Source: Fusobacterium ulcerans ATCC 49185
GTDB lineage: Bacteria; Fusobacteriota; Fusobacteriia; Fusobacteriales; Fusobacteriaceae
Length of the DNA stretch: 64,000 nucleotides
Direction: 5' to 3'
NCBI RefSeq assembly: GCF_900683735.1
Contig: NZ_LR215979.1
Span: forward strand, 1,550,001-1,614,000
Shown here: positions 45,343 to 53,659 of the stretch, one piece after another
How positions within the stretch are numbered: the stretch's first letter is position 1
Layout of the letters: each line of letters opens with the position of its first letter
Notes under the pieces: model-generated
The model's database searches: none
Seen by the model: only the letters and a program-made list of their open reading frames with translations
Told to the model about the DNA's origin: nothing
Made by a program: the position numbers and the translations under genes

Positions 45343-45450
45343 TTCTATGCAGATTTTTTAAGAAACATAGAGGGAATATTACAAAATATTTCAAATGCAT
45401 AATGAATGCATATATCTCATAAAGTCATTAAATTAATTAAAAATAAATTA

Positions 45451-45514
45451 CTCATATATCCCTGTAATATGGTCAGGAGTCTCTACGGGTTGCCACTTAA
45501 CAAGCCGCTATGAG
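45451..45514 (+). ncRNA. Purine riboswitch, guanine/xanthine-type aptamer
   Basis: P1 is CTCATA/TATGAG. P2 is CCTG/CAGG with the conserved ATATGG loop, J2/3 has the TCTCTAC core (TTTCTAC in xpt; the changed base is the exposed one), and P3 pairs CGGGTTG with CAAGCCG. The specificity base before TATGAG is C, as in guanine/hypoxanthine sensors, not T as in adenine sensors. It precedes a xanthine/uracil-type permease. Guanine-type aptamers normally switch expression off. Confidence 0.93.
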
Positions 45515-45521
45515 TGAATTT

Positions 45522-45562
45522 AATAGTCCTTCTTTAGTATTATTATAGGATTATTTTCTTTC
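45522..45562 (+). terminator. Expression-platform terminator of the purine riboswitch
   Basis: AATAGTCC pairs with GGATTATT (one G-U) and runs into TTTTCTTT. A second hairpin, GGAAATA/TATTTCC (45583-45605), follows. The stem begins 8 bases after P1, so P1 3' bases are available for an antiterminator when no purine is bound. Confidence 0.65.
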
Positions 45563-50705: not shown

Positions 50706-51272
50706 ATGAAATTATTAAAAGAATATATAGAGAAAAATGGTAAAGCCATTGGAACGAATATTCTAAAAGTAGATAGTTTTTTAAACCATCAAATAGACCC
50801 TAACCTAATGATGGCTATGGGAGAAGAGTTTAAAAGAAGATTTGAAGATCAGGGAGTTAATAAAATACTTACTATAGAAGCTTCTGGAATTGCAATAGGT
50901 TTAGCTGCTGCTTATGCCTTTAATGTACCTCTTGTTTTTGCTAAAAAGAAAATTCCTTCTACTATGGGAGATTTTTACACAGCTAATGTATTTTCATTTA
51001 CTAAGAATAAAGATTACACTATTTGTGTAGCTAAAGAATTTTTATCACCTAATGATAGAGTCCTTATTGTAGATGACTTCCTTGCTATGGGAAATGCTGT
51101 ATTAGGTCTTAAATCATTAGTTGAATCTGCTGGAGCTGAAGTTATTGGAGCTGGTATTGCAGTAGAAAAAGGATTTCAGCAAGGTGAAAAACTATTAGTT
51201 GATAATGGTGTTAAAGTTGAGGCTCTTGCTGTTGTTGATTCACTTGAAAATGGTATTATTAAATTTAGATAA
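50706..51272 (+). CDS. xpt: Xanthine phosphoribosyltransferase
   Basis: 188 residues. Converts xanthine and PRPP to XMP for salvage. N-terminal MKLLKEYIEKNGKAIGTNILKVDSFLNHQIDPNLM is typical of Xpt. The base region IEASGIAIGLAAAYAFNVPLVFAKKK and the PRPP-binding loop VLIVDDFLAMGNAVLGL (DD plus GN) are present. GGAGG precedes the ATG; it is 93 bases downstream of the molybdenum subunit gene with no terminator, so it could be part of the same transcript. Confidence 0.93.
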   Translation: MKLLKEYIEKNGKAIGTNILKVDSFLNHQIDPNLMMAMGEEFKRRFEDQGVNKILTIEASGIAIGLAAAYAFNVPLVFAKKKIPSTMGDFYTANVFSFTKNKDYTICVAKEFLSPNDRVLIVDDFLAMGNAVLGLKSLVESAGAEVIGAGIAVEKGFQQGEKLLVDNGVKVEALAVVDSLENGIIKFR

Positions 51273-51305: not shown

Positions 51306-51334
51306 TTGACATTTTCTTTTTATGAGAGTATTAT
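51306..51334 (+). promoter_or_regulatory. Promoter of the His-leader/amino-acid ABC operon
   Basis: TTGACA, exactly 17 bases, TATTAT; AGGAG and the leader ATG follow 26-37 bases later. Confidence 0.8.
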
Positions 51335-51370
51335 AAGTTCATAATAAATTTTAGTTAAGAGGAGATAATT

Positions 51371-51424
51371 ATGAAAGTCATTAGCGTTCTTAAAAACACA
51401 TTACATCACCATCATCATAGATAA
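51371..51424 (+). CDS. Histidine leader peptide (17 residues, five consecutive His codons)
   Basis: ATG 51371, 6 bases after AGGAG, encodes MKVISVLKNTLHHHHHR and a TAA stop. Codons at 51404-51418 are five His in a row, next to Arg, the classical form of an amino-acid-sensing attenuator (compare the seven His of enteric hisL). Downstream are a long hairpin, a terminator and the genes of a polar amino acid importer. Expected role: a ribosome stalled at His codons when charged tRNA-His is scarce lets transcription continue into the importer. Too short for ordinary gene finding. Confidence 0.9.
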   Translation: MKVISVLKNTLHHHHHR

Positions 51425-51449
51425 GAGTTTGTTTTTGTGAATTTTATTC

Positions 51450-51493
51450 ATAGATGCAGACTCATGTTGTAATTCAAACGAGTCTGTATCTAT
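51450..51493 (+). promoter_or_regulatory. Attenuator hairpin downstream of the His leader
   Basis: ATAGATGCAGACTC (51450-51463) pairs with GAGTCTGTATCTAT (51480-51493), 14 pairs with one G-U. Its right arm, TATCTATG (51487-51494), can instead pair with CATAGATA (51416-51423) at the last His codon, Arg codon and stop of the leader peptide, so ribosome position decides which fold forms. How this hairpin reaches the terminator is not resolved. Confidence 0.7.
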
Positions 51494-51522
51494 GGTGGAA
51501 CTTAATGCTTTCTAATTTAGTT

Positions 51523-51558
51523 AAGCCATCTGGATACTTATGTCAGATGGCTTTTTTA
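51523..51558 (+). terminator. Attenuator terminator before the amino acid ABC genes
   Basis: AAGCCATCTG pairs perfectly with CAGATGGCTT around an 11-base loop and runs into T6, 32 bases before the first structural gene. Confidence 0.9.
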
Positions 51559-51589
51559 TTTTAATTTAATAATACGGAGGGAGATCTTT

Positions 51590-52360
51590 ATGAAAAAATT
51601 ATTTATGGCGGTTTTAGTTATTACGGTATTAGCTTCTATTAGTTTATTTGCAGCTGATGGTTCTTTAGAAAAAGTAAAAAAAGATGGATATTTTATAGTT
51701 GGATTAGATGCTACATTTGCTCCAATGGGATTCAGAGATGAAAACGAAGAAATAGTTGGATTCGATATTGACCTTGCTAAAGAAGTTGCTAAGAGAATGG
51801 GTGTTGAAGCTAGATTCAAACCTTGTGAATGGGATGGAATCATCTTTGATCTTAGAAGTAAAAATATTGACATGGTATGGAATGGAATGACAATCACAGA
51901 ACAAAGAAGCAAACAGGCAGCTTTTACTACTCCATATCTTGTAGATGGGCAAATCATTTTCTCTAGAAAAGGTAATGAAATAAATAAAGTCAGTGAACTT
52001 GCTGGAAAAGTAGTAGGTGTTCAATTAGGAAGCTCTGGATCACAAGCAGTTGAAAGAAATGCTATTGCTCCAAAACTTAAAGAAATAAAAAAATATGCAA
52101 CAAATGTAGAAGCACTTCTTGATCTTGAAGCTGGAAGAACAGATGCAGTAGTTATGGATGCTATCTCTGGAAAATACTACAATGCTAAGAAAAATACTTT
52201 AAGCTTCTCTGAAGAATCTTTATCAGATGAATACTTTGCCGTAGCTTTAAGAAAAGATGACAAAGCTCTATTAGATGAAATTAACAGATTATTAGATGAA
52301 ATGAAAAAAGATGGAACATTCGATCAAATTTCATTAAAATGGCTAGGAACAACTAAATAA
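51590..52360 (+). CDS. Polar amino acid ABC importer, binding protein (probably histidine)
   Basis: 256 residues. Signal peptide KKLFMAVLVITVLASISLFA, cut after residue 21. SBP_bac_3 fold: KKDGYFIVGLDATFAPMGFRDENEEIVGFDIDLAKEVAKRMG, FDLRSKNIDMVWNGMTIT with EQRSK, VVGVQLGSSGSQAVE and TDAVVMDAISGKYY, then DGTFDQISLKWLG. The first aromatic/Asp residues suit an amino acid head group. The His-codon leader suggests histidine; lysine/arginine binders share the fold, so this rests on regulation. ATG after GGAGGGAG. Confidence 0.9.
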   Translation: MKKLFMAVLVITVLASISLFAADGSLEKVKKDGYFIVGLDATFAPMGFRDENEEIVGFDIDLAKEVAKRMGVEARFKPCEWDGIIFDLRSKNIDMVWNGMTITEQRSKQAAFTTPYLVDGQIIFSRKGNEINKVSELAGKVVGVQLGSSGSQAVERNAIAPKLKEIKKYATNVEALLDLEAGRTDAVVMDAISGKYYNAKKNTLSFSEESLSDEYFAVALRKDDKALLDEINRLLDEMKKDGTFDQISLKWLGTTK

Positions 52361-52377: not shown

Positions 52378-53004
52378 ATGGATGGAAATATAATATTTAT
52401 TTTAAAAGGTATGAAATTAACAGTTAATTTATATGTTGTAACTATGCTTTTCTCTCTTCCTCTAGGGATATTATTATCCCTAGGGAGAGTTTCAAAAAAT
52501 ACAACATTAAGTAATATGATTCAAATATACACATGGATATTCAGAGGGACCCCCCTTTTACTTCAACTTTTCTTTGTGTACTATGGTCTTCCAGTAGTTG
52601 GTATTACTTTAACACCTTTTGCTGCTGCTTCTCTTACATTTGTTATAAATTATACAGCTTATTTCTGTGAAATATTTAGAGGAAGCATTCTGGGAATTGA
52701 TCCAGGACAATATGAAGCTGCAAAAGTACTTGGTATGAAGTACTGGCAGACTATGATTAGAATAATAATTCCACAAGCTCTTATTACAGCACTTCCACCA
52801 TTATCAAATGAGGCCATCTCTCTTATTAAAGATACTTCATTAGTTTCTGCTATTGGAATGGCTGAGATATTAAGAAATTCAAGAGAAATTGTTACTCGTG
52901 ATTTCTCAATAGCACCATTTTTTATATGTGCAGTAGTATATTTAGGACTTTCTACAATAGTTGTTTTATTCTTTAAAAGAATGGAAAAAAAGGTGATGAT
53001 ATAA
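52378..53004 (+). CDS. Polar amino acid ABC importer, permease
   Basis: 208 residues with five membrane segments, the His/Glu/Gln/Arg permease type. The EAA loop reads YEAAKVLGMKYWQTMIRIIIPQALITALPPL; the start GMKLTVNLYVVTMLFSLPLGILLSLGR is typical. Works as a homodimer because only one permease gene is present. AAGGAG precedes ATG; 17 bases after the binding protein gene, one base before the ATPase. Confidence 0.92.
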   Translation: MDGNIIFILKGMKLTVNLYVVTMLFSLPLGILLSLGRVSKNTTLSNMIQIYTWIFRGTPLLLQLFFVYYGLPVVGITLTPFAAASLTFVINYTAYFCEIFRGSILGIDPGQYEAAKVLGMKYWQTMIRIIIPQALITALPPLSNEAISLIKDTSLVSAIGMAEILRNSREIVTRDFSIAPFFICAVVYLGLSTIVVLFFKRMEKKVMI

Positions 53005-53005
53005 T

Positions 53006-53659
53006 ATGATTATTAAAGTTAATAATTTATCTAAACAATATTTAGAAGGAGATGTTATACTTAAAGGTGTCAATCTTGATATAGAAAAAGGAGAAGTAGT
53101 TTCTATAATAGGTCCATCTGGAGGTGGAAAATCTACTCTTCTCAGATGTCTTATCGGCTTAGAAGAAATAGATTCTGGAGATATAAAAGTCCCTGATAAA
53201 AAGAAAATGGGAATGGTTTTTCAAGCTTTTAATCTTTTTCCTCATAAAACAGCTATTCAAAATATAATGGAATCACTGATAGTTGTAGATAAAATGGATA
53301 AATCTGAAGCAAAAAAAATAGCTTATGATCTTTTAGAAAAAGTTGGGCTTAAAGACAGAGCTGACTTTTATCCTAAAGCTCTTTCTGGAGGTCAAAAACA
53401 GAGGGTAGCTATTGCCAGAGCTTTAGCAAGAAATCCAGAAGTTTTGCTTTTTGATGAACCTACATCTGCTCTCGATCCTGATATGGTAAAGGAAGTATTG
53501 AACGTTATTGAACAGCTTAGAGAATCAAGTAATATTACTATGGTAATAGTAAGCCATGAAATAGATTTTGTTAATCAAATTTCTGACAGAATTGTTGTAA
53601 TGGAAAATGGTAATATAAAAGACATAATTGTTAATAAGAAAAAAAGACAGGTTTCCTAA
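53006..53659 (+). CDS. Polar amino acid ABC importer, ATPase
   Basis: 217 residues, about 20 shorter than GlnQ/HisP because the region after Walker A and the C-terminus are trimmed. Walker A GPSGGGKST, Q-loop VFQAFNLFPHKTAIQNI, signature LSGGQKQR, Walker B VLLFDEPTSALDP and H-loop VSHEIDFV are all intact, so it should be active. It powers import with the two genes before it. It ends in a basic tail KKKKRQVS that overlaps the terminator. Confidence 0.93.
   Translation: MIIKVNNLSKQYLEGDVILKGVNLDIEKGEVVSIIGPSGGGKSTLLRCLIGLEEIDSGDIKVPDKKKMGMVFQAFNLFPHKTAIQNIMESLIVVDKMDKSEAKKIAYDLLEKVGLKDRADFYPKALSGGQKQRVAIARALARNPEVLLFDEPTSALDPDMVKEVLNVIEQLRESSNITMVIVSHEIDFVNQISDRIVVMENGNIKDIIVNKKKRQVS

Follow-up and report, generated by a model that had tools for sequence, protein, structure and literature searches.

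A transcription attenuator of the ribosome-mediated (leader-peptide) type, responsive to charged tRNA-His, very probably controls a histidine importer in Fusobacterium ulcerans ATCC 49185. The element lies in a stretch of 64,000 nucleotides (nt) (the window; contig 1, positions 1550001 to 1614000) of the 3.84-Mb genome of this member of the Fusobacteriaceae, between xpt and the genes of an ATP-binding cassette (ABC) importer. Arranged there in order are a promoter, an AGGAG Shine-Dalgarno (SD) site, a short open reading frame (ORF), a strong hairpin and, beyond a spacer, a terminator with T6 (Table 1). An earlier note on this DNA had listed the TTGACA-17-TATTAT promoter, the AGGAG site, a 17-residue ORF with five His codons, the T6 terminator and the ABC importer in this order, and all of them were present. 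The hairpin, which it gave as 14 pairs, was present as well, with a stem of 16 pairs (51448-51463 with 51480-51495).

In a scan of 6 kb, the promoter ranked best of 37 promoter-like sites, and TTGAC(A/T) was found at a similar position upstream of most homologous leaders. The terminator stem was formed by 51523-51533 with 51543-51553, followed by T6 at 51552-51557; it was not listed by the terminator scan, apparently because its loop has 9 nt and the scan permits 3 to 8. The RNA from 51424 to 51570 gave a folding z of -5.7 relative to shuffled sequences.

Conservation of the leader peptide

Leaders were looked for in the DNA preceding the genes of 30 proteins related to the substrate-binding protein. 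An SD-led ORF of 11 to 23 codons ending in 3 to 6 His codons, usually followed by Arg and the stop codon, was present at 22 of the 30 loci. The N-terminal parts of these 22 peptides differed strongly, as in MEQFLDLSINKKTIHHHHHR, MFSKSFANFITVHHHHHR and MYIIFNHHHHR. The comparison of homologous leaders that the earlier note had proposed, for conserved His codons with changing flanks, was therefore borne out by the 22 loci: as in known attenuators, a short SD-led ORF stands upstream, and its tandem codons for a single amino acid are conserved while the rest of the peptide varies.

The pattern CAYCAYCAYCAYMGNTAR occurred only once in the host genome and was present in 27 of the 61 Fusobacteriaceae genomes searched, none of which contained the reversed control. 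Most of the matches among the loci inspected precede the same importer gene, and at two loci (L050 and L060) the same architecture precedes hisZ instead of the importer. Locus L022 (genome G027) carries a degenerate leader, MSQLFVNLNTLHYHRY (HYHRY), in which two His codons are mixed with Tyr; the RNA scaffold is kept. No His leader was present before the orthologous or related binding-protein genes at L014, L015, L026, L027 and L030. At L014 and L026 a terminator-like hairpin is retained in the absence of the leader, indicating that control was lost or replaced.

Competing pairings behind the stop codon

Five segments behind the stop codon were marked from 23 homologous leaders. In the window, segments 1 and 2 form 15 pairs (51425-51440 with 51448-51463, -16.8 kcal/mol), segments 2 and 3 form 16 pairs (-24.4 kcal/mol), the antiterminator 3:4 has 12 pairs (51486-51498 with 51526-51537, -12.8 kcal/mol) and the terminator 4:5 has 11 pairs (-16.7 kcal/mol). 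Coevolution was assayed by comparing the duplex energy of each sequence's own partners with that of permuted partners (25 sequences, 5000 permutations). The z values were -7.0 for 1:2, -6.2 for 2:3, -4.4 for 3:4 and -9.6 for 4:5, with 0 of 5000 permutations reaching the observed value in each case. Eight control pairings (1:3, 1:4, 2:4, 2:5, 3:5, loop:4, spacer:4 and 1:5) were null on the same 25 sequences. The permutations ignore phylogeny, but these control pairings and the slid controls of the alignment tests argue against relatedness as the cause of the coevolution.

In a MAFFT alignment, the terminator conformation had 10 pairs changed on both sides, compared with 3.9 in shuffles, and none of 500 shuffles equalled it. 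The antitermination conformation alone had 85% of cells paired. RNAalifold, unaided, selected 1:2 together with 4:5.

The earlier note, which named only a part of the RNA switch, had pointed out that the leader end (51416-51423) can pair with 51487-51494. The complementarity of these 8 bases is exact and the mean duplex energy of 0:3 across the homologues was -12.2 kcal/mol, but its coevolution was weak (z -1.9, 159 of 5000 permutations), and 0:3 was rejected as the main switch. The main switch is instead the segment directly behind the stop codon (51425-51441); by pairing with the hairpin's left arm it frees the right arm to take the left arm of the terminator. The 5' half of the ORF did not coevolve with segments 1 to 4. 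An antiterminator first drawn by eye for L001, in which CTTAA of the spacer pairs with TTAAG, was dropped since the spacer:4 pairing was unsupported.

The end of xpt at 51272 is only about 250 nt away from the terminator, and the leader RNA might be merely the transcript terminator of xpt, with a His-rich ORF arising by chance and a constitutively expressed importer. A promoter lies between xpt and the leader, however, the His run is conserved together with the four mutually exclusive pairings, and relatives have the module before hisZ as well, all of which makes this explanation barely credible. Conservation and coevolution lend strong support to the proposal of the earlier note that a His leader with an attenuator controls an amino acid importer.

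Table 1. Positions of the features in the window
Feature	Position	Strand	Remarks
xpt	50706-51272		gene upstream of promoter and leader
Promoter TTGACA-17-TATTAT	51306-51334	+	-35 TTGACA 51306-51311; -10 TATTAT 51329-51334
SD site AGGAG of leader ORF	51360-51364	+	kept in nearly all homologues
Leader ORF MKVISVLKNTLHHHHHR*, 17 codons	51371-51424	+	stop codon 51422-51424
Five tandem His codons, regulatory	51404-51418	+	run conserved, flanks changing
Segment 0, CATAGATA (last His, Arg, part of stop)	51416-51423	+	complementary to 51487-51494 in segment 3
Segment 1	51425-51441	+	pairs with segment 2; would lie under a ribosome that has reached the stop codon
Segment 2, left arm of central hairpin	51447-51463	+	partner is segment 1 or 3
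Possible RNA polymerase pause end, U at +10 after 1:2	51473	+	role suggested by spacing alone
Segment 3, right arm of central hairpin	51480-51498	+	partner is segment 2 or 4
Segment 4, left arm of terminator	51523-51537	+	partner is segment 5 or 3
Segment 5 and T6, right arm of terminator and U tract	51542-51557	+	segment 5 itself 51542-51553
Substrate-binding protein of polar amino acid ABC importer, proposed histidine-binding	51590-52360	+	by family models
Importer permease	52378-53004	+	TIGR01726 above cut-off
Importer ATP-binding protein	53006-53659	+	by family model

Proposed mechanism

RNA polymerase would transcribe the leader, perhaps pausing just past hairpin 1:2, during translation of the 17-codon ORF by a ribosome. 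With ample His-tRNA the ribosome would reach the stop codon and mask segment 1, 2:3 and then 4:5 would form, and transcription would terminate at T6. With scarce His-tRNA the ribosome would stall on the His run and leave segment 1 free; 1:2 and then 3:4 would form, no terminator would arise and the importer would be transcribed. In an untranslated leader, either segment 2 or the leader end (segment 0) would occupy segment 3, and termination would occur by default. The 0:3 pairing may serve as a fail-safe for this last situation; it was given this role only, because it is strong in energy and weakly coevolved.

Folding with the ribosome placed at different positions was consistent with this scheme. 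With a ribosome at the stop codon, 2:3 and 4:5 folded in 24 of 25 homologues, the exception being L048. With a ribosome stalled on the second His codon and the RNA extending to segment 4, 1:2 and 3:4 formed in the window RNA and in most homologues. Without a ribosome, 3:4 was missing in 23 of 25 homologues because segment 3 was held by segment 2 or the leader end.

Several points weigh against this reading. Sequence and comparison show the anatomy, the conserved His run, the four coevolving pairings, the constant spacing of codons and segment and the gene context; the ribosome positions, the pausing and the response to histidine are deductions. About 10 of the 25 homologues with a stalled ribosome lacked the full 1:2 plus 3:4 fold at equilibrium, so that cotranscriptional kinetics must be assumed. 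In the column-wise counts, the antitermination conformation had 3 pairs changed on both sides, which was not above shuffles. Mutually exclusive terminator and antiterminator structures are nevertheless backed by coevolution; the column-wise counts for the antiterminator are weak, and the duplex-energy test is the stronger support for 3:4. The substrate of the importer, finally, is deduced from the codons of the leader, as the protein families do not name it.

A family of attenuators in the Fusobacteriota

The His leader is one member of a phylum-wide family and not a lone case. A peptide-blind covariance model built from the RNA that follows the stop codon (R1) matched 60 of 98 Fusobacteriota genomes, and a wider model (R2) matched 64 of 98, with up to 8 copies per genome. 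The importer leader was the single accepted R2 match in the host genome; a second match (E 0.026) was rejected because it is a terminator that directly follows a gene and lacks a leader ORF.

The amino acid run of the leader changes together with the downstream gene, the family of which was checked on the first 260 residues (HisZ on the whole protein). Pro leaders (QPIPPR, PIVP) precede PutP, and an Asn leader (NNNNNN) precedes AsnA. A Thr leader (TTTT) stands before an apparent threonyl-tRNA synthetase, a call made by eye with no family match at the strict cut-off, and a Thr/Ile leader before Asd. Tyr leaders (YYYYY) were found before TyrS and a Na/Ala-type symporter, a Trp/Tyr/Phe leader before 3-deoxy-D-arabino-heptulosonate 7-phosphate (DAHP) synthase, and Trp leaders (WWWSF, WQSHWI) before an SNF symporter and a PF04392 binding protein. 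Met leaders (MMMM) precede MetN, MetG, MetY and Hom, a Met/Cys leader precedes sulfite reductase and a Cys leader (MCCC) precedes an SDF symporter. His leaders precede HisZ and, in the Leptotrichiaceae, the importer.

The loci at which such non-His leaders (Pro, Thr, Thr/Ile, Tyr, Met, Asn, aromatic, Trp or Cys) were observed on this scaffold before matching genes include L104, L105, L107, L111, L120, L125, L129, L158, L179, L183, L187 and L196. At L184 an aromatic leader, MFWFMYYF, lies before an iron-containing alcohol dehydrogenase, and at L193 a WQSWYFED leader lies before a protein resembling an oligopeptide-binding protein. A cobalamin riboswitch and a match resembling a glycine riboswitch were located near the Pro and Thr/Ile attenuators (L104, 2610-2788; L107, 787-935).

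For 63 attenuators, the coevolution z values were -10.4 (1:2), -11.1 (2:3), -9.6 (3:4) and -24.2 (4:5); the pairings 2:3 and 3:4 are not part of the structure of the covariance model. The 43 non-His attenuators gave -9.1, -10.0, -7.3 and -19.8 in the same order, and all controls were null in both sets. Behind hairpin 1:2, T was present at +4 in 63 of 63 attenuators and at +5 and +10 in 60 of 63 each (51464-51474 in the window, and homologues). Pairing does not account for these near-invariant U residues, and they may be an element at which RNA polymerase pauses. In its distance from the hairpin, +10 is reminiscent of hairpin-stabilised pausing in the trp and his leaders.

On the numbering of the covariance model, most of 59 leaders, drawn from all classes, have regulatory codons that start about 8 to 20 nt ahead of segment 1, and in the window the first nt of each His codon also lies 8 to 20 nt from this segment. 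The stop codon floats from -4 to +19 in the 59 leaders, except at L126, where it is at -16. A constant spacing between codons and segment is what the footprint of a ribosome would demand. Alternative terminator and antiterminator folds alone are no proof of control by a ribosome, and a protein, either a repressor or a factor resembling TRAP, could in principle select the RNA fold. As SD site, start, stop and runs of several amino acids are conserved at a fixed distance from segment 1 throughout the 59 leaders, such a factor is extremely improbable.

The proposed histidine importer and physiology

The leader amino acid fits the controlled gene for the hisZ operons and the other leader classes; for the importer in the window, histidine is predicted from the codons. 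The binding protein is nearest to the family models for cystine and for lysine/arginine/ornithine, with scores below the equivalog cut-offs, and its closest solved relative is AncQR, a reconstructed ancestor. The leader could accordingly work as described with an importer that carries another substrate (e.g., arginine, glutamine or cystine), the His codons serving as a proxy. This is unlikely, since leader and gene agree in every other inspected class with an assignable function (Pro and PutP, Tyr and TyrS, Asn and AsnA, and Met and MetN, MetG or MetY), and since the same His leader stands before hisZ where a genome has hisG.

HisG was absent from the host genome and from all searched genomes of its genus (12 of 12), so that histidine is presumably supplied by uptake. 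It was present in 16 of 61 Fusobacteriaceae genomes, and in 12 of these 16 a match to the attenuator model was found about 1.4 to 1.6 kb upstream of hisG. Relatives that retain histidine biosynthesis carry the same RNA before hisZ; in the presumed auxotrophs the same control presumably sits on uptake. Histidine transporters under attenuators had reportedly been predicted by Vitreschak et al. in 2004. A gene of the histidine ammonia-lyase family (G000:C1:244926-246311) is present in the HisG-less host genome, and histidine may be both required and catabolised in this organism.

A purine riboswitch aptamer (RF00167, 57.3 bits) was detected at 45432-45530 on the + strand of the window, upstream of molybdopterin dehydrogenase-like genes and xpt.

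Comparison with known systems

The enterobacterial his leader (RF00514, hisL) is alike in its short peptide with a His run, its chain of competing pairings, the read-through upon stalling and the intrinsic terminator. It differs in that an importer is controlled here and that the ribosome at the stop codon would mask segment 1. Its fail-safe is the upstream A:B pairing, compared with 0:3 or 2:3 as proposed here. The RF00514 model had no match at E 0.001 or better in the host genome, and the Escherichia coli control matched.

T-boxes (RF00230) are likewise a modular, phylum-level control of amino acid genes by tRNA charging; unlike the leaders described here, they sense the tRNA directly. No match to the RF00230 covariance model was found in the host genome, and 1 to 3 copies were present in 14 of 61 Fusobacteriaceae genomes. 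One T-box over the cut-off (genome G007, contig 53, 5272-5519) lies in an incomplete genome (71%) whose genus-mates are without it, and may represent contamination or transfer.

The trpB motif (RF04312, SRC-39-1) matched 51447-51562 with 45.2 bits (E 1.8e-5), and the cut-off of 59 bits was not reached. None of 96 genomes had a match above the gathering cut-off. Below it there were 48 matches in 39 of 61 Fusobacteriaceae genomes, 45 of them, by our count, on peptide-led attenuators; two matches without a leader (L198 and L199) were set aside. A pattern of the RF04312 type was not found in a scan of viral contigs. As in the description of the motif, the leader has two hairpins in the 5' untranslated region of an amino acid gene, the second being a terminator, and the antiterminator involves the right shoulder of the first. 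Its description presents the motif as a strong riboswitch candidate of Firmicutes and Fusobacteria with variable genes and unknown ligand, and states that a classic attenuator cannot be ruled out (Narunsky et al. 2024, PMC11109978). The elements share with it the layout of two hairpins, the right-shoulder antiterminator and, in Firmicutes and Fusobacteria, the location ahead of ABC transporters for amino acids. They differ in that the motif was published without a leader peptide and that, by the curated cut-off, the fusobacterial elements are not RF04312 members.

The sub-threshold match and the classification of the motif would fit a metabolite-binding riboswitch, with the central hairpin as the ligand-binding part and the ORF a mere coincidence. 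A fixed aptamer, however, cannot explain that the amino acid run changes together with the downstream gene on a shared scaffold; the codon-to-segment spacing is constant, and few bases are conserved outside the helices (UU and U in the 2-3 loop). A riboswitch is thus very unlikely, and the data support attenuation by leader peptides for the fusobacterial relatives of the trpB motif. A broader view is slightly more likely than not. In this view one scaffold (segments 1 to 5 and the pause-like element), whose leaders cover nine or more amino acids (His, Pro, Thr, Ile, Tyr, Trp/Phe, Met, Cys and Asn), would replace in the Fusobacteriota the T-boxes of Firmicutes, and RF04312 would be the downstream half of such attenuators, also in Firmicutes, and not a metabolite aptamer.

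According to the earlier note, peptide attenuators are known mainly for biosynthesis operons of enterics. Non-enteric and transport cases had already been proposed, however, with peptide attenuators for his genes of Firmicutes, including hisZYX (Ashniev et al. 2022, PMC9413887), and for hisS/hisZ of bacilli (Naville and Gautheret 2010, PMC2965389). Compared by description, these resemble the elements studied here in having 3 to 5 His codons before his genes, and before hisZYX transporters in some cases; they belong to another phylum, and the accessible text of both reports contains no scaffold shared by several amino acids. No description of the fusobacterial elements was found in the accessible portions of the literature on Fusobacteria or structured RNAs. 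Leader-peptide attenuation itself is classical; its phylum-wide variant in Fusobacteria appears to be new.

Significance

A classical mechanism is placed here in a phylum for which no description of it was found. The leaders yield substrate predictions for orphan transporters, namely His for the ABC importer of the window and Pro, Tyr, Trp and Cys for symporters of relatives. They also provide a testable answer to the identity of the trpB motif, a riboswitch candidate of 2024. As a single RNA scaffold has been re-fitted with different codon runs, the evolution of attenuators becomes directly readable in this family.
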